NCBI GenBank assembly: GCA_027483445.1
Contig: JAIXUS010000015.1
Coordinates: 1 to 64,000 of the forward strand
Direction: 5' to 3'
Length of the DNA stretch: 64,000 bases
DNA from: Bacteroidota bacterium
Lineage (GTDB): Bacteria; Bacteroidota; Bacteroidia; M30B66
Below the pieces are notes generated by a model. The model saw only the letters and a program-made list of their open reading frames with translations. It did no database searches and was not told the DNA's origin. Made by a program: the position numbers and the translations under genes. Positions 4,700 through 19,799 of the stretch are shown in pieces (within the stretch, counting starts at the first letter, position 1; each line of letters begins with the position of its first letter).

Positions 4700-5229
4700 T
4701 GAAGCTGCTATTTCCCAATAGGTGAAAACTATAATCGACTTACGTTTTCCTCTTCAGATAAAAAAGCGTTTTAATGGCTGAACACACAAATTGATGATGA
4801 CTCGAAATAGGGTTGGTTGTGAGTAGGGTCTACCTAAAAACTGAATAGCTTTTCATTAGTGCTCTTATAGGTCATTGAATCGAAGTAGAGCCAACCGAAA
4901 AAGTTAGAAATGTGCCTGTTGCGAGGCGAATAGGCGAAGCTGTATATTGAATACTGCTTGCCGCGGGCAACGAAGCAGATGCTACATTTCTGGCTAATGA
5001 AAAACTGAGCTCAATGAATTCACAAGAGGATTGATTTTCAAAAGCCAGACTAAAATCCATTGCGTTAAGCCTCCTTCAATTATGGGCTAAAGTACTATAA
5101 ATAAAGCCATTGAGTATTTTTTAGTAAGTACTAAAGTAGATGGACCATTACTACAAGTTGGATGATTTTTTCCTCCGCCATTGTTAATACTTACTCTGAA
5201 ATTAGAGTAAAAACGGGCGGCCATCCTCT
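4700..5229. other. intergenic region holding a dispersed hairpin repeat
   Basis: No gene is supported in this 530-base gap. It contains the hairpin repeat listed at 4897-5005. The last 130 bases are AT-rich and lead into the topoisomerase promoter. Confidence 0.4.
4897..5005. repeat. dispersed hairpin repeat, copy A
   Basis: Outer arms AGAAATGT (4906-4913) and ACATTTCT (4984-4991) are inverted. Between them CTGCTT and AAGCAG bracket a GC-rich core with GCCGCGGGCAACGAA. The same core and arm layout recur at 39701-39765, where the arm pair is AGAAATGC/GCATTTCT, so the closing pair changed from T-A to C-G. A left-half fragment occurs at 51933-51955. Confidence 0.65.
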
Positions 5230-5237
5230 TATTTTTG
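5230..5237 (+). promoter_or_regulatory. -7 box immediately before parC
   Basis: TATTTTTG matches the Bacteroidota TAnnTTTG consensus exactly and ends six bases before the ATG at 5244. Transcription would start at or just before the start codon. Confidence 0.5.
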
Positions 5238-5243
5238 CGCCCT

Positions 5244-7889
5244 ATGGCAGAAGATACACCAGAAGAGACAGAAGGCATGGATTTGTCGGAGCAGCATGCT
5301 TCTGACGAGCACATTACCCATCTGGGCGGGATGTATGAGAACTGGTTCCTCGATTATGCTTCGTATGTGATTCTCGAGCGTGCCGTTCCATACGTGGAAG
5401 ATGGACTCAAGCCGGTGCAGCGGCGAATTCTGCATGCCATGCAGGAACTCGACGACGGGCGGTACAACAAAGTGGCGAATATTATTGGGCATACCATGAA
5501 GTATCACCCGCACGGTGATGCCTCCATTGGCGATGCTTTGGTGCAGCTGGGGCAGAAAGACCTGCTTATCGACTGCCAGGGAAACTGGGGTAACATCCTC
5601 ACGGGCGACTCTGCCGCGGCGGCGCGTTACATCGAGGCCCGCCTTAGCAAGCTGGGCAACGAAATCCTCTTTAACCCAAAAACCACACACTGGCAGCTCA
5701 GTTACGATGGCCGAAACAACGAGCCCATCACGCTTCCGGTAAAATTCCCCTTGCTGCTCGCCCAAGGCGTGGAAGGCATTGCGGTAGGTCTGGCCTGCAA
5801 AATTCTGCCCCACAATTTCATCGAGCTTATTGATGCCTCGGTGGCTTATTTGAAGGGGAAATCGTTTGAAATTTACCCCGACTTCCTCACCGGCGGTCTG
5901 GCCGATTTCAGCAAGTACAACGACGGCATGCGGGGCGGAAAAGTGCGGGTTCGAGCCAAAATTTCGCAGCTCGACAAGAACACGCTCGTCATCACCGAAA
6001 TCCCTTTCGGAACCACCACCGGAAGCCTGATTGAATCCATCATCAGCGCCAACGAAAAGGAGAAGATTAAAATCCGCAAGATTGAGGACAATACCGCCGA
6101 GAATGTAGAAATCCTCATCCACCTGCCTGCGGGTATTTCGCCCGACATCACCATCGATGCGCTGTATGCAGTAACCGACTGCGAGATTACCATTTCGCCT
6201 AACGCCTGCATCATTGAGAATGATAAGCCGCGGTTTACGGGTGTTTCAGATATTTTGCGCCTATCGGCGGATAACACCCGCTACCTCCTACAGCGCGAGT
6301 TGGAAATCGAGAAAGCCGAGCTGGAAGAGGCCTGGCACTTCAGTTCACTCGAGAAAATCTTCATCGAAGAGCGCATCTACCGCGACATTGAAGAAGCCGA
6401 AACCTGGGAAGAGGTGATAAGCCGCATCGACAAAGGCTTACAGCCCTTCCGTTCGCGATTGAAGCGCGATATTACCCACGACGACATTGTTCGGCTTACC
6501 GAAATCCGCATCAAGCGCATCTCGAAATTCGATGCCTTCAAGGCCGATGAGCAAATCAAGGGCATTGAAGAGAAAATTGCGCAGTGCGAAAATCATCTGG
6601 CCAACCTCACCGAATATACGGTTGCCTGGTACCTGAACCTGAAGAAGAAATATGGTGCCGGCCGCGAGCGGAAGACTGAGATTCGTCCGTTCGAGAACAT
6701 CGAGCTGGCCAAGGTGGTCATCAACAACGCCAAACTTTACGTAAACCGCGAAGAAGGCTTTGCCGGTTATGGCCTGAAGAAGGACGAATACGTGTGCGAA
6801 TGCTCCGACATCGACGATATTGTGGTGATGCGGGCCGATGGCACCATGCTCGTGACCCGAATTTCCGACAAAGCCTTTGTTGGCAAGGACATTTTGCATA
6901 TCAACGTTTTCCGAAAGAACGACGACCGCACCACATACAATTTGGTGTATCAGGATGGCAAAACCGGTCCGTATTTCGTCAAGCGTTTCGCCATCAGCGG
7001 GGTCATCCGCGACAAGGAATACCCGCTAACCAAGGGAACTAAAGGCTCAAAGGTGATTTACCTGAGTGCCAATCCGAACGGGGAGAGCGAAACCCTGCAT
7101 GTGTTCCTCAAGCCACGTCCTAAACTGAAGAAAACCTCATTTGAGTTCGATTTCGGAACGCTGGCCATCAAGGGTAGGGGAGCCGCCGGAAATACCCTCA
7201 CGAAGATTCCCATTCGGAAGATTGTGTTGAAGGAGAAGGGCCAAAGTACCCTGGCTGCAAGGCAGATTTGGTGGGACGAATCGGTGAAACGCATCAACAC
7301 CGAAGGACGGGGCTCGCTGCTCGGTTCATTTGGTCCGGCCGATAAAATCCTCACCCTAATGCAGAGTGGTCATTACCGGCTTTACCCGGCCGATCCGGCC
7401 CTGCATTTCGAGGAAGACCTGATTCACATTGAGAAATTCCGTCCTCAACAGCCTATTTCGGCCGTGTATTATGATGCCGAAACGAAGGAGCACATGGTGA
7501 AGCGTTTCGTTCCGGAAAGCGGCGATAAAAAGACCTTGTTTATCAGTGAAGCGGAGGGCTCAGTGCTCATTTATGCCAGCACCGATACGTTCCCTCGCAT
7601 ACAGGTAGACTTTGCCAAGATGGGCAAGGTAGAACGGGCCTCTCAGGAGATTGAGCTGGAGTCGTTCATTGCCGTGAAGGGCTTGAAGGCCAAAGGGAAG
7701 AAGCTGGCCCAACAGCCGCCGAAGAAAATTACGCCTTTGGAGTCGTTGCCCGAACCGGAGCACGAGCCCGAACCGGAAGGTGGGCCAGGTGCCGACGAAG
7801 CCGATGATTCCGCAACGGATGCCGCACCGAATATTGTAATCGACCTCGAAGCCGATGATGATCAGCTGAGGTTGTTCGGGGAATCGTAA
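5244..7889 (+). CDS. parC: DNA topoisomerase IV (or gyrase-type) subunit A
   Basis: An 881-residue type IIA topoisomerase A subunit, which cuts and rejoins DNA to unlink daughter chromosomes. The N-terminal breakage-reunion domain shows YVEDGLKPVQRRIL, the KYHPHGDASIGDAL segment and the active-site tyrosine in AAAARYIEARLS (about residue 130). A long coiled-coil/tower region follows, then C-terminal beta-pinwheel-like repeats (residues 520-800) and an acidic tail rich in E, P and D. ATG 5244 is chosen over the upstream TTG at 5235, which lies inside the -7 box. The parE partner is not adjacent. The C-terminal domain lacks an obvious gyrase GyrA-box, which favours ParC over GyrA. Confidence 0.88.
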   Translation: MAEDTPEETEGMDLSEQHASDEHITHLGGMYENWFLDYASYVILERAVPYVEDGLKPVQRRILHAMQELDDGRYNKVANIIGHTMKYHPHGDASIGDALVQLGQKDLLIDCQGNWGNILTGDSAAAARYIEARLSKLGNEILFNPKTTHWQLSYDGRNNEPITLPVKFPLLLAQGVEGIAVGLACKILPHNFIELIDASVAYLKGKSFEIYPDFLTGGLADFSKYNDGMRGGKVRVRAKISQLDKNTLVITEIPFGTTTGSLIESIISANEKEKIKIRKIEDNTAENVEILIHLPAGISPDITIDALYAVTDCEITISPNACIIENDKPRFTGVSDILRLSADNTRYLLQRELEIEKAELEEAWHFSSLEKIFIEERIYRDIEEAETWEEVISRIDKGLQPFRSRLKRDITHDDIVRLTEIRIKRISKFDAFKADEQIKGIEEKIAQCENHLANLTEYTVAWYLNLKKKYGAGRERKTEIRPFENIELAKVVINNAKLYVNREEGFAGYGLKKDEYVCECSDIDDIVVMRADGTMLVTRISDKAFVGKDILHINVFRKNDDRTTYNLVYQDGKTGPYFVKRFAISGVIRDKEYPLTKGTKGSKVIYLSANPNGESETLHVFLKPRPKLKKTSFEFDFGTLAIKGRGAAGNTLTKIPIRKIVLKEKGQSTLAARQIWWDESVKRINTEGRGSLLGSFGPADKILTLMQSGHYRLYPADPALHFEEDLIHIEKFRPQQPISAVYYDAETKEHMVKRFVPESGDKKTLFISEAEGSVLIYASTDTFPRIQVDFAKMGKVERASQEIELESFIAVKGLKAKGKKLAQQPPKKITPLESLPEPEHEPEPEGGPGADEADDSATDAAPNIVIDLEADDDQLRLFGES

Positions 7890-7893
7890 AAGC

Positions 7894-7928
7894 AAAAGCG
7901 CCTTTGAGGCTCGTTCAAAGGCGCTTTT
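7894..7928 (+). terminator. strong intrinsic terminator after parC
   Basis: A perfect 14-bp stem (7894-7907 with 7915-7928) encloses a seven-base loop and ends in a T-run. It starts five bases after the parC stop. Confidence 0.9.
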
Positions 7929-7976
7929 TAAATGCTATGTGCAACAACAATTCTATTCACCAAGTGTAAAGTTCTG

Positions 7977-7984
7977 TACCTTTG
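7977..7984 (+). promoter_or_regulatory. -7 box immediately before the zeta-like gene
   Basis: TACCTTTG matches TAnnTTTG exactly and ends three bases before ATG 7988, suggesting a leaderless mRNA. Confidence 0.5.
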
Positions 7985-7987
7985 AAA

Positions 7988-8575
7988 ATGCAGGTTAAAA
8001 GGCTTTACATGATAGGTGGTTGTAATGGTTCTGGCAAAACCACAGCCTCATTCAATATTCTTCCAGATCTTCTACATTGCAATGAGTTTGTTAATGCGGA
8101 TGAAATAGCCAGAGGTCTTTCACCATTTCAGCCTGAAAAAGTTTCAATTGAAGCTGGAAGATTAATGCTAAAAAGAATTGATGAACTTATTCATTCAAAC
8201 CAAGATTTTGCCTTTGAAACTACACTGGCAACGAGGACCTTCGTTAGCACTGTTAAGAAAGCTAGAGCAAGAGGCTATTTTGTTACACTGATTTTCTTTT
8301 GGCTGGATTCAATAGAATTAGCAAGAGATAGAGTACGGAGAAGAGTTTCAGAAGGAGGCCATTTTATTGAATCGTCAGTGATTGAAAGAAGGTACAAAGC
8401 AGGAATTAAAAACCTGTTTCACTTGTATGGTCATGTAGTGGATTCTTTACTTATCTACGATAATTCAAAGGCCGAAGCTGAATTAATCGCCGAGAAAGAA
8501 CTTGAAAGTGAATACTTCGTTATACACAATGCTGAAAAGTTTAACACTTTAAAAAGGCTGTCAAATGAGCAATAA
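7988..8575 (+). CDS. zeta-toxin-family P-loop kinase
   Basis: A 195-residue P-loop protein of the zeta toxin / AAA_33 family. A Walker A motif GGCNGSGKTT lies at residues 10-19, followed by NADEIARGLSPF (catalytic Asp region) and the substrate-strand motif FAFETTLATRTF near residue 75. RRRVSEGGH resembles the lid arginines. Classical zeta toxins phosphorylate UDP-N-acetylglucosamine and block cell-wall synthesis; whether this short stand-alone form does so is not known. ATG 7988 is chosen because the earlier TTG at 7982 falls inside the -7 box. The gene is markedly AT-rich compared with parC, consistent with transfer. It overlaps a 48-residue downstream frame by 11 bases. Confidence 0.82.
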   Translation: MQVKRLYMIGGCNGSGKTTASFNILPDLLHCNEFVNADEIARGLSPFQPEKVSIEAGRLMLKRIDELIHSNQDFAFETTLATRTFVSTVKKARARGYFVTLIFFWLDSIELARDRVRRRVSEGGHFIESSVIERRYKAGIKNLFHLYGHVVDSLLIYDNSKAEAELIAEKELESEYFVIHNAEKFNTLKRLSNEQ

Positions 8576-8711
8576 GGAAAAAGAGGCTTTGAAGGAAACC
8601 ATTAAGAAAGCAATCAAAATTTCCTCACAAAAATTAATTCAGAGAAAGAAAGCGCTTGGACAAAAACTAGTGATAAGCGATAATGGAAAAGTCAAGGTAG
8701 TAGAGCCATAG
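8565..8711 (+). CDS. 48-residue partner of the zeta-like kinase
   Basis: This small frame starts inside the end of the zeta-like gene (ATG 8565, 11-base overlap) and ends at TAG 8709-8711. The product is basic in its N-terminal half (KEKEALKETIKKAIKISSQ, probably helical), followed by RKKALGQKLVISDNGKVKVV, which reads like a small beta-hairpin. Overlap, shared base composition and small size argue for co-translation with the kinase. It could be an antitoxin-like regulator, although in epsilon/zeta systems the antitoxin gene normally lies upstream; function is inferred from position only. Confidence 0.6.
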   Translation: MSNKEKEALKETIKKAIKISSQKLIQRKKALGQKLVISDNGKVKVVEP

Positions 8712-8798
8712 AAGGCAAGGACATTGAGTACTTAGTCTTCAGTAATTAGAGGATGCGGGTTAACCTTTGAATGCTCTTCACTGATGCGAGGGGTTGAA

Positions 8799-8833
8799 CG
8801 TATTGCGTATCACGTATGTCGTATTTCGTACAC
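8799..8833 (+). repeat. CGTATNN heptamer array, pair 1 left
   Basis: Five consecutive seven-base units read CGTATTG, CGTATCA, CGTATGT, CGTATTT, CGTACAC. The period is exact and the last two bases of each unit vary. Confidence 0.7.
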
Positions 8834-9090
8834 TGCCCTTCCCTAAATAGCGTTGACCCTTTTGGTTCAACATTGATTTATTTCCATCGGGCAATCAGGA
8901 GCATGAGGTACTTCTTTTGTGCAGCTGTTTAGCGTGAATAAATGCAGCTGTTTCAAATTTGATTTTGTCGTTTGAAATACTCAATTCCTCGCTCGTCAGC
9001 ATGTTCCGAAGCTAGCCGTTAATCGGCAATTGCAATGCCGCCTGCGCTCAAGTAATTTCTCAGTTCCAACAATTTACCGTGCCCAAAATC

Positions 9091-9151
9091 AAAAAAAAAC
9101 CAAAGCCTGAAGCGCTTGTTCCATTTAGAAACGTTCGCCTCAAGCCTTGGG
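9091..9151 (-). terminator. intrinsic terminator of the TonB/HMA operon
   Basis: Read on the minus strand, arms at 9151-9136 and 9114-9100 pair over about 13-15 positions with three G-T wobbles, enclose a loop of about 20 bases and are followed by nine T residues (9099-9091). Confidence 0.75.
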
Positions 9152-9154
9152 TTT

Positions 9155-9189
9155 TCATACGCAGTACGGAATACGTAATACGCTGTACG
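9155..9189 (-). repeat. CGTATNN heptamer array, pair 1 right
   Basis: Five seven-base units on the minus strand (CGTACAG, CGTATTA, CGTATTC, CGTACTG, CGTATGA), facing the array at 8799-8833. Confidence 0.7.
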
Positions 9190-9245
9190 CTCGTTTATGA
9201 AATCTCTCCCCCAAATGTTACCGTGCCCTCAGCCTAGAGCCTCAA

Positions 9246-11480
9246 TCACTGAAACTTCCAACGCATTCCAATATACACCACCTGACCAAAGGTAGGTCCC
9301 CAGATTTGAGCAGCATCGAAAAAGCCATTGTGAGGGTCTTCGGGTGAAATGATTTGCCGGCTTTGAATAACGCCGGTCAAGTTCTCACCACCCACATACA
9401 CCGCTAGTTTTTCAAAGTTATAGGTTACCTGGGCATGCAGCAAGGCATAGTCGGGCGAGCGGTCGGTCATCTGGTACGGCTCCGGATTGCCACGGGTATC
9501 AGGCATTCGCTTGCTGCTGATGTAGTTTATCGTTACGTCGGCCATAAACTTATTGCCCCTCGAATGGTAGGAGAGGCTGGCCAGCGCGCGATGTCGGGCT
9601 GTAAAGGGTTTCTCCAGCCAGCCTTTGGTGTTAAAGAACATCCAGGCATCGGTGTAACGATAAGCCATGCGCAAGTCGAAGCGATTGTTGATCTCCTGAA
9701 ACAGATCCAGCTGCGTGCTGTTGGCAAACGATTTCCCATCCACATTGTACACCAGCATCTTTTGCGCATGTGCATCAAGGTCAATCACCGTTTGGCGCTC
9801 AAACCAGGTGTAGAAGTACTCTCCCGAAAGGCTTCCTTCGCGGCCGTTGATGAAATAGCTCCATTGAAAGCTGGTTCCGCCATTCCAGGCTACTTCAGGC
9901 CTAAGGTCGTAAGCTGCGCTGATGGTTCCGGGCTGCGCAACAGGCGTGATAAATGTCCGGCTACTCACCAGATAAGCCATGTTTTCGGCCAAAACATTGG
10001 CTGTACGCTGACCTCTTCCGCCGGAGGCGCGAATATTGAAACGCTCAGTGATGTTCCACTTGTAATGCAGCCTCGGCGTTACAAATCCCCCAAAGAGGAA
10101 GTTATGGTCGGCGCGAAGCCCCGCCACCAGCGTGTGATTTCCGTAGTTTCCGGTGTATTCAAAAAAGCCTCCTGCGGTTTGCTCAAGTCGGGCAAGCGGA
10201 GTTCCGGTGTAGTACTCTTCATATTGATCGCTCCAGAAATTGGCTCCGGTACGGTACTTATGCTTGCCCGAAAACCCGATTTGATTTTGGAAAAACACAT
10301 TGGCATTCACACTGTGCTGGTTGGCTTGATACCAACGGGCATCGAACTGCGAGTTAATGGTGTAGCGCTGAAAGTTACCCAGGAACCCGATGCTCTTGCG
10401 CGGATTGCTTTTGAATACATATCCGGCCTTGGCCACAACGTCCCACTGCTGAATTTCCTGGTCGAACTCGTAATGGTGCTCATCGAATGGATCTTCCTCA
10501 GTGTGTGTGGTTCCCGAATACTTCTTTTCCCGAACATAACGAACACTGAGTTGCGCTGTGCGACCCATGGTATCGCGGTAAAACCAACGGTTCATCACAT
10601 TGCCCTGCCAGCCGTCCGGACTGTCCATAAAACCATCGCGGTTCTGATCGATCATATTATCCATCCAGCTACCGTGCACCAAAAGGTTGGTACTCAGCTT
10701 CTCGTTTAGCTTTACCACCTTAATGAGATTGGCCTCCGAACGCCCGAACTGGTTCAAATACAAATTCAGTAAACCTCGCTCTTTGCAATCAGGCTTTTTA
10801 ATTTCGGTGTTGATTTGTCCCGTAATCGACTCAAAACCATTGGCTACCGAGCCCACGCCTTTCGATACCTGGATCGATTCAACCCAGGTTCCGGGCAGCA
10901 AACTCAAGCCGTGGTTAATGTCTAAACCCCTTATTAATGGTAGGTTTTCAATGGTGTTTTGCAAGTAAATACCGCTCAATCCCAACATTTGAATTTGCCG
11001 GCTTCCGGTAACCGCGTCGGTGGTGGTAATGTCTACCGTAGCACTGTTTTGAAAGCTTTCCGAAACATTGCAGCAAGCTGCTTTAAAAAGCTCCTGTTCG
11101 GTGATGATTTCGGTTTTGATGGGATTGATGCTCGACAGATAGGTAGAAGGCTGCACGGCAACAACTTCAAAGGTGTTCAGCTCTTTTTCATCGATCAGGC
11201 TTACGGTATTGGGTTTGCCTTTCAGGCTGATGACAGTATCGGCTCTATGTCCGGTGGCCGTAAAAATCAGGACCAACGTATCGGCTTCTGATACGATTTC
11301 ATACCGGCCATCGTCGTCGGTTTGTACTAACAAGGTTCCATCCTGTATGTAAACCTGAGCTCCGGGTAGGCTCTGGTTTCCGTGCTTATTTTGGCCTGAA
11401 ACCACGCCTGAGTGCTGAGCCTGCATACCACACGAAAACCCGATGCTTGCCAGAAGCAGGAGCTTAGTGGTGGCGTTCAT
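9246..11480 (-). CDS. TonB-dependent receptor of the metal operon
   Basis: A 744-residue outer-membrane receptor. A signal peptide ends near MQAQ (residue 22). Residues 25-100 form a CarboxypepD_reg-like domain (GAQVYIQDGTLLVQTDDDGRYE), residues 110-240 the plug (QIQMLGLSGIYLQNTIENLP, then GVGSVANGFESITGQIN), and the rest is a 22-strand type barrel ending in an aromatic residue pair (WKFQ). Plug residues include an unusual AACCNVSESF segment with two cysteines. It is the last gene of an operon whose other members are HMA-type metal-binding proteins, so the likely cargo is a copper or other soft-metal complex. Its ATG overlaps the end of the preceding gene by 17 bases. Confidence 0.85.
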   Translation of the reverse strand: MNATTKLLLLASIGFSCGMQAQHSGVVSGQNKHGNQSLPGAQVYIQDGTLLVQTDDDGRYEIVSEADTLVLIFTATGHRADTVISLKGKPNTVSLIDEKELNTFEVVAVQPSTYLSSINPIKTEIITEQELFKAACCNVSESFQNSATVDITTTDAVTGSRQIQMLGLSGIYLQNTIENLPLIRGLDINHGLSLLPGTWVESIQVSKGVGSVANGFESITGQINTEIKKPDCKERGLLNLYLNQFGRSEANLIKVVKLNEKLSTNLLVHGSWMDNMIDQNRDGFMDSPDGWQGNVMNRWFYRDTMGRTAQLSVRYVREKKYSGTTHTEEDPFDEHHYEFDQEIQQWDVVAKAGYVFKSNPRKSIGFLGNFQRYTINSQFDARWYQANQHSVNANVFFQNQIGFSGKHKYRTGANFWSDQYEEYYTGTPLARLEQTAGGFFEYTGNYGNHTLVAGLRADHNFLFGGFVTPRLHYKWNITERFNIRASGGRGQRTANVLAENMAYLVSSRTFITPVAQPGTISAAYDLRPEVAWNGGTSFQWSYFINGREGSLSGEYFYTWFERQTVIDLDAHAQKMLVYNVDGKSFANSTQLDLFQEINNRFDLRMAYRYTDAWMFFNTKGWLEKPFTARHRALASLSYHSRGNKFMADVTINYISSKRMPDTRGNPEPYQMTDRSPDYALLHAQVTYNFEKLAVYVGGENLTGVIQSRQIISPEDPHNGFFDAAQIWGPTFGQVVYIGMRWKFQ

Positions 11481-19193: not shown

Positions 19194-19228
19194 GGTATTA
19201 CGTATTACGTATTGCGTATTGCGTTTTA
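19194..19228 (+). repeat. CGTATNN heptamer array, pair 2 left
   Basis: Five seven-base units: GGTATTA, CGTATTA, CGTATTG, CGTATTG, CGTTTTA. The last unit contains the stop codon of the four-helix-bundle gene. The 17-mer at 19208-19224 is exactly inverted at 19769-19785. Confidence 0.75.
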
Positions 19229-19615
19229 TGAATTAGGGGTATTACGGTTTGAACGGTCAATTGATTTACGAATCGACTGTTGTAGGTTCACATTCATTCG
19301 GCTTATCGCATCAATGTATTCTAGTATCTGTGAACGTTCTGTTTCATTGAGATACTTTCGTCGAAATGAAATTTCTGTTTGAAAATGGAGTTCAGCTGCG
19401 GAACCATTTGAAATACCAATGAAGTGATCGAATTCTTTTTGTGAATTTCTGCCAGCTCCTTCGGCAATATTTGATCCTATTGAAACTGCGCATCTTCGCA
19501 TTTGATCGCTCAAACCATAGCGCTCGGAATTAGGAAAATTGGCAGTAACTTCATAAATGAAATCAGCCAGTTCCAGCGCTTTTTGCCAGGTTCTTAATTT
19601 ACTTGCATCATTCAT
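19226..19615 (-). CDS. four-helix-bundle protein (23S rRNA intervening-sequence family)
   Basis: A 129-residue protein of the four-helix-bundle family first known from 23S rRNA intervening sequences and related to the Avd accessory proteins of diversity-generating retroelements. Characteristic motifs are LRTWQKALELADFIYEVT at the start, YGLSDQMRRCAVSIGSNIAEG in the middle and EFDHFIGISNGSAAEL. Function is unknown; nucleic-acid binding is suspected for relatives because of their basic faces. The gene interrupts an otherwise standard fadB-fadA-acyl-CoA dehydrogenase operon and is enclosed by inward-facing heptamer arrays, so it looks like an inserted cassette. Confidence 0.85.
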   Translation of the reverse strand: MNDASKLRTWQKALELADFIYEVTANFPNSERYGLSDQMRRCAVSIGSNIAEGAGRNSQKEFDHFIGISNGSAAELHFQTEISFRRKYLNETERSQILEYIDAISRMNVNLQQSIRKSIDRSNRNTPNS

Positions 19616-19757: not shown

Positions 19758-19799
19758 TGCTACGTTATACGCAATACGCAATACGTTATACGCAATACG
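19758..19799 (-). repeat. CGTATNN heptamer array, pair 2 right
   Basis: Five perfect minus-strand units (CGTATTG, CGTATAA, CGTATTG, CGTATTG, CGTATAA) at 19799-19765 plus a degenerate sixth (CGTAGCA). It lies 14 bases after the fadB stop. Confidence 0.75.

Follow-up and report, generated by a model that had tools for sequence, protein, structure and literature searches.

Two inward-facing heptamer arrays between convergent genes of a Bacteroidota bacterium as candidate solo sites of a kind that brackets four-helix-bundle genes

The window, a stretch of 64,000 nucleotides of a Bacteroidota genome (contig JAIXUS010000015.1), contains an intergenic region with two short heptamer arrays (Table 1). 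To the left, the plus strand carries a zeta-toxin-like gene and, overlapping its end, a small ORF. To the right lies the gene of a TonB-dependent receptor on the minus strand. The toxin-like gene had been noted as AT-rich, and its GC content of 36.4%, against 47% for the window, and its PF06414 match agree with that; positions 7930-9033 together have 38% GC, against the same 47%. Searched as positions 8568-8711, the small ORF has no match in Pfam or NCBIfam. Both ORFs (7982-8711) are missing at this place in the congeners G001 and G002 and are possibly a recent acquisition. The terminator hairpin of the TonB-receptor gene, read on the minus strand, has a predicted free energy of -30.2 kcal/mol (z -4.65) and is followed by nine U. 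The right array lies between the stop codon of this gene and the hairpin, where the preliminary description of this DNA had placed it.

Table 1. Positions of genes, arrays and repeats in the window.
Feature	Positions	Strand	Remarks
Zeta-toxin-like gene	7982-8575	+	PF06414, E 2.4e-9
Small ORF	8565-8711	+	48 codons; overlaps end of zeta gene
Dispersed repeat holding the left array	8726-8988	+	Linker of about 45 bp, CGTAT array, tail of about 155 bp
Left array	8799-8833	+	CGTATTG CGTATCA CGTATGT CGTATTT CGTACAC; 3' of zeta-toxin gene and same-strand small ORF
Repeat tail	8834-8988	+	Same tail on contig C9 (L039) after an AAAGTNN array instead of CGTAT
Short dispersed repeat, by eye REP-like	8983-9044	.	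Copies on C79 (twice) and C9, 88-92%
Intrinsic terminator of TonB-receptor gene	9088-9150	-	Predicted hairpin
Dispersed module holding the right array	9122-9245	-	Weaker copies: G002, 69-78%; C47 (same genome), array half, 81%
Right array	9155-9189	-	CGTACAG CGTATTA CGTATTC CGTACTG CGTATGA; 3' untranslated region of TonB-receptor gene, ahead of terminator
TonB-dependent receptor gene	9246-11480	-	Label from preliminary description; stop at 9246
Inverted CGTAT array 3' of four-helix gene	19194-19228	+	Overlaps four-helix stop codon
Four-helix-bundle gene	19226-19615	-	PF05635, E 9e-37; TIGR02436, E 9e-34
CGTAT array 5' of four-helix gene	19758-19799	-	14 bp past stop of preceding same-strand gene

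The two arrays face inward, hold five heptamers each and span 391 bp, and the unit-by-unit sequence bears out the earlier account in these respects. The unit had been given as CGTATNN. This form is present in four of the five units on the left and in three of five on the right; the rest begin with CGTAC, so the unit is more exactly CGTAYNN. The interior is free of genes, as had been stated: the space between the arrays lacks any ORF of at least 60 aa. The sequence pattern CGTATNNCGTAT is expected 0.07 times in the window and has 10 occurrences there, with a maximum of one among 100 shuffles. Across the whole genome the three-unit pattern has 14 matches and its reversed control none. By hand count, 12 of the 19 CGTAT chains of this genome have exactly five units. 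As for a location of the pair in 23S rRNA, positions 7900-9300 have no Rfam match and contain no known RNA family.

Each array is embedded in a larger dispersed sequence. The repeat that holds the left array begins with degenerate AGTCT-like heptamers (8727-8754, by eye only). The comparison of the interior with other copies in the genome, which the preliminary description had recommended, finds this repeat to be dispersed: a copy on contig C46 matches at 81.6% over 267 columns and has no partner array, and shorter copies are present on C4, C79, C55, C8 and C51. The occurrence on C9 of the same tail after an AAAGTNN array shows that arrays of different pentamer are able to occupy one junction. 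In a MITE-like element the whole unit would be dispersed with both ends; the copies found here carry a single side only.

The 19-kb cassette of the preliminary description is taken here as the pair of arrays that brackets the four-helix-bundle gene at 19 kb. The protein scores above the curated cut-offs of PF05635 (126 vs 33.8 bits) and TIGR02436 (116 vs 24 bits), which describe the 23S-rRNA intervening-sequence protein family (S23/IVP). This genome contains three four-helix genes; the copy on contig C39 is bracketed by AAAGTNN arrays and the copy on C30 has no arrays. At the 19-kb site, G001 and G003 contain an orthologous protein with CGTAT arrays, and a CGTAT-flanked gene is present at the same intergenic site in G000, G001 and G003. 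In G002, the four-helix protein encoded at this site is a different one and AGTCT arrays flank it on either side, so that the gene and both arrays were exchanged as a set. At the locus between two genes that we take from their translations to be fadJ and fadA, three congeners have an orthologous gene and G002 a different one; in G004 the flanking genes are not adjacent, so that none of these genomes offers an empty site there as evidence on mobility.

The preliminary description had argued for a defined family of elements, and this is upheld beyond the window: arrays bracket four-helix genes widely, prefer a count of five and recur in the same geometry. TIGR02436 genes are present (E 1e-10) in 90 of the 119 genomes of this class that were sampled. 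A first set of 70 Bacteroidia loci is non-random, with 30 returned loci and 40 picked from the listing (16 multi-gene genomes), and its gene ends are approximate, at a fixed 320 bp past the start of the match. Within 200 bp of these 70 genes, heptad arrays are present in 85 of 140 flanks (43 left, 42 right) and in 2 of 138 control windows. Inverted pentamer pairs score above the 99th percentile of the control flanks at 54 of the 70 loci. The second set, whose loci come from named genomes spread over many phyla, was obtained by an alignment scan of genome contigs, a single-protein scan having given no match; four of its 80 loci were excluded for short flanks. At the threshold of 12.1, set on the control flanks of the first set and reused here, 55 of the remaining 76 loci are above threshold, against 1 of 72 controls. 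Outside the Bacteroidota, as sorted by record titles, the count is 40 of 52. The loci below threshold number 16 of 70 and 21 of 76. In the second set, none of the six loci that belong by record title to Patescibacteria-type lineages (L198, L212, L220, L241, L243, L247) is above threshold, and given these loci the heptamer arrays may be limited by lineage. The arrays are a real type of site and apparently a general one.

Five is the commonest number of units in both sets, upstream (16 of 54 in the first, 23 of 55 in the second) and downstream (12 of 54 and 20 of 55). In a simulation, the planted count was recovered in most runs. Five is the mode and no rule; four and six are common and some arrays exceed 10 units. 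These data also bear on the idea that the arrays are functionless seven-base microsatellites produced by slippage. Heptanucleotide repeats are common in bacteria according to the portion of PMC4679880 available here, and some of the present arrays (such as L163 and L061) are long and nearly uniform. Slippage would homogenise the units, whereas those at 8799-9189 are not identical and vary at two positions each, which sets them apart from a simple sequence repeat. The strong enrichment of inverted order beside one gene family, the modal count of five and the retention of an array at an orthologous place also stand against microsatellites, and this origin is quite improbable.

The pentamer differs from gene to gene, and it follows the protein to some extent. 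Over 48 of the 54 loci (six with long or low-complexity arrays, L061, L073, L082, L098, L100 and L122, being left out), protein identity and array similarity are correlated (Mantel r 0.295; none of 2000 permutations reached this value). Among the 15 protein pairs with more than 60% identity, 73% share a site (similarity of 0.75 or more); below 40% identity this falls to 0.4 to 4%. The correlation is inflated, since some of the closest pairs come from one genus and are possibly orthologues with inherited flanks.

Arrays of a given pentamer are also concentrated in certain genomes. TAGCT arrays number 35 in G064 and 12 in G021, both of which contain TAGCT-flanked genes, and are absent from 18 of 22 genomes. 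They are also present in G055 (9) and G116 (2), which have no TAGCT-flanked gene among their genes read, a partial set. There are 14 AGTCT arrays in G000 and 18 in G003; an AGTCT-flanked four-helix gene was not found in these two genomes. By a motif test, none of 16 TAGCT loci in G064 and G021 adjoins a four-helix ORF, so the window is not the only place with solo sites.

The preliminary description had suggested that the pair at 8799-9189 might be a copy of the 19-kb cassette that is empty or has decayed. The pair shares with four-helix cassettes the arrangement of inverted arrays with one pentamer, and it has the same pentamer, five units apiece and the same inward orientation as the arrays at 19 kb. 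Geneless inward pairs are found elsewhere, at L037 in this genome and at L163, L166 and L167 in G064. The interior holds no trace of a four-helix gene: with 55 proteins as queries, the best tblastn match has an E value of 0.43, against 7e-97 for the 19-kb gene as control. In a unit-by-unit comparison, the variable letters of the left and right arrays agree at 3 of 10 positions, compared with 7 of 10 in the true 19-kb pair. This last argument is weak because two true pairs of the same genus score just 3 of 10 and 4 of 10. The agreement test covers 47 of the 54 loci, with the same six loci left out as above and one more with an array of fewer than three units.

The congeners provide a second comparison, which had also been proposed as a check. 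In G002, both outer genes are present in the same order. The alignment with the window covers 5228-7929 at 88.5% and restarts at 9034 at 80.2%. Between the two blocks is a short unrelated stretch; the zeta-toxin-like gene, the left array and the interior before about 9034 are all missing, yet G002 keeps the right array together with the terminator of the TonB gene (82.6% identity over 219 aligned columns). The counterpart of the right array (CGTACAA CGTATTG CGTATTC CGTATTG CGTTTGA) is the single CGTAT array on the 10-kb contig of G002. In G001, the two outer genes are adjacent and the zeta gene is missing. A plus-strand array lies 6 bp past the TonB stop codon, and a mixed, degenerate minus-strand array lies at the stop codon of the other gene, about 690 bp away. 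An additional, weaker plus-strand array is present further into the intergenic region. The flanks of the G001 array after the TonB stop codon are not alignable to those in the window, and this array could be a separate gain. In G003, the TonB gene is in a different neighbourhood and has no array; G004 has no match to the region.

The two arrays of the pair are thus neither both present nor both absent in relatives. The preliminary description had named in advance what would count against a single element, namely that relatives have the two arrays as independent sites at unrelated distances, and the G001 pair is of this kind. Judged from the alignment, the right array is older and common to G002. 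The simpler reading of these sequences is that the left array and the zeta gene were gained here, as they are found here only when compared with the two comparable congeners; alternatively, they may have been lost in both. The preservation of the right array without the left in G002, its differently placed partner in G001, the C46 repeat without a partner and the lack of a gene remnant contradict the empty-cassette reading, and it is highly unlikely that the pair is the two ends of one four-helix cassette that has lost its gene.

The pair is probably, with some reserve, two separate solo sites, each 3' of its own convergent gene, within a model of binding by a ring protein. The inward geometry then results from two convergent genes, each with an array 3' of its stop codon, and needs no joint origin of the arrays. 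Sixteen geneless CGTAT arrays of this genome were examined. In the stretches read, 14 of them have a neighbouring ORF on the 5' side, which for 11 of the 14 shares the strand of the array. In convergent regions, all eight geneless CGTAT arrays are closer to the stop codon of the gene on their own strand than to the other gene. The solo TAGCT arrays of G064 and G021 occur in both orientations, and just six are at a same-strand stop codon. An orientation rule for all solo arrays was considered and set aside; it holds for CGTAT here and in part for TAGCT in those genomes. The four-helix cassettes have a preceding gene on the same strand at 50 of 54 loci and a following gene on the same strand at 45 of 52. 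The upstream array starts between -10 and +14 bp from the end of the preceding ORF at 43 of 54 loci (hand count).

These positions would also fit an action at the level of RNA, in which the arrays would be sites in 3' untranslated regions or the inverted arrays would form an imperfect stem that is processed like the intervening sequence (IVS) of 23S rRNA. The right array is within the TonB transcript ahead of the terminator, and the cassettes sit between co-directional genes. In predicted folds of 54 loci, the inverted arrays pair with each other over a median of 70% of their letters, a figure without a shuffled control. In Coxiella, RNase III cleaves the IVS close to the heptamers, as stated in the part of PMC4990558 available here. 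The mismatches between paired arrays point in the wrong direction, however, with 50 compatible with G-U pairing in the sense strand and 85 in the antisense strand (p 0.003). The variable letters agree in 48% of cases against 40% in shuffled units, a slight excess. A stem does not require five near-identical units, and, barring read-through, inward solo arrays that belong to two convergent transcripts do not share one RNA molecule. An RNA-level device is unlikely on this evidence, and the wobble test led to rejection of the view that an RNA stem mainly accounts for the inversion, despite the pairing in predicted folds.

In the model of separate solo sites, an array of five heptamers would be a site of the kind that brackets four-helix (S23/IVP, PF05635) genes. 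The four-helix protein is predicted to form a five-membered ring, which would bind the array with one unit per subunit, each heptamer providing five letters that are fixed and two that act as spacers. A gene with two inverted arrays would behave as a cassette. Solo arrays would be sites without the gene, to which the CGTAT-type protein of 19226-19615 could bind in trans. Array binding, its single-stranded as against double-stranded form, the ring stoichiometry of this protein and any effect on host genes are all predicted. Against the model stand the four-helix loci below threshold, the array-free gene on C30, unit counts other than five, the TAGCT and AGTCT arrays in genomes with no matching flanked gene among those read, the mixed orientation of the solo TAGCT arrays and the possibly separate gain of the array in G001. 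The TRAP ring binds repeated triplets with spacers. The proposed complex would resemble it, with each subunit of a ring taking up one repeat and the spacers free to vary; the TRAP protein is unrelated to the four-helix protein, and binding by a ring is a proposal in the present case. Seven bases are no multiple of the helical repeat of DNA, which favours single-stranded DNA or RNA on the ring. The solved relatives 2gsc and 2rld each contain five chains of one sequence, and the Xanthomonas relative is a toroidal homopentamer of four-helix bundles, according to the accessible text of PMC4990558. Five heptamers and five subunits together suggest one unit per subunit.

The proteins of this family have been called functionless for decades. 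A wider proposition, advanced tentatively and less probable than the reading of the pair itself, is that S23/IVP proteins are widespread pentameric rings that recognise five-heptamer arrays through their own heptamer codes, that the gene and its two arrays move or are exchanged as a cassette set between the stop and start codons of adjacent genes, that the rRNA intervening sequences are a special case and that the many solo sites of genomes, including the two here, bring other genes under control of the ring. If the array is the site of the neighbouring protein, the role of S23/IVP is reduced to a simple binding test with a control for specificity built in, since every gene indicates which site to expect for its protein. 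The same link would connect the literature on rRNA intervening sequences with that on intergenic heptamer repeats. No paper linking heptamer arrays to S23/IVP generally was found in the open-access literature without preprints; one may exist elsewhere.

The nearest known system is the 23S rRNA IVS of Coxiella burnetii, which has a four-helix S23 gene and inverted terminal repeats, as do the cassettes here, and in which three GACAGAT units and one GACAGAA lie in tandem directly before the S23 ORF (available part of PMC4990558). That element lies within 23S rRNA and is excised by RNase III (same part of PMC4990558), whereas the present arrays are intergenic, their heptamer varies by gene and the pair at 8799-9189 has no gene. 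The TAACTGA repeats of Beggiatoaceae, cyanobacteria and a few Bacteroidetes are likewise short, dispersed, intergenic direct heptamers. Unlike the arrays here, they have one fixed heptamer, and in the main genome they mostly stand just before start codons (PMC4679880, in the sections available). The terms 'helix bundle', '23S' and 'S23' have no match in the available text of that paper, which shows no link to four-helix proteins. Avd and bAvd of diversity-generating retroelements (PF22296) have a related four-helix fold, according to the portion of PMC10053308 available. For the 19-kb protein the bAvd match is weak (E 1.2e-5) and under the curated cut-off, and the arrays here are no template repeats.

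Several further features of the heptamer regions are visible by inspection. At L039 (1319-1579), L038 (1-660) and L033 (2435-2660) there is a dispersed non-coding repeat of a few hundred bp by eye. The L039 and L038 copies have a palindromic stretch at the end, and the window interior is a shortened form. The CGTATNN, AAAGTNN and AGTCTNN families are found side by side in intergenic regions of this genome, at L012 (4578-4913), L019 (3603-3913), L021 (34-225) and L036 (1596-1828). At L021, the AAAGTNN arrays at 34-64 and 196-225 form a geneless pair. A second geneless inward CGTAT pair is located at L037 (1655-1682 and 1852-1886), about 230 bp across, where the flanking genes are not clearly convergent. 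In the TAGCT sites (L103, L121, L160-L175), the fifth unit is often TAGRAAW and not TAGCTNN; in other heptamer families, too, the units at the two ends of an array are degenerate.
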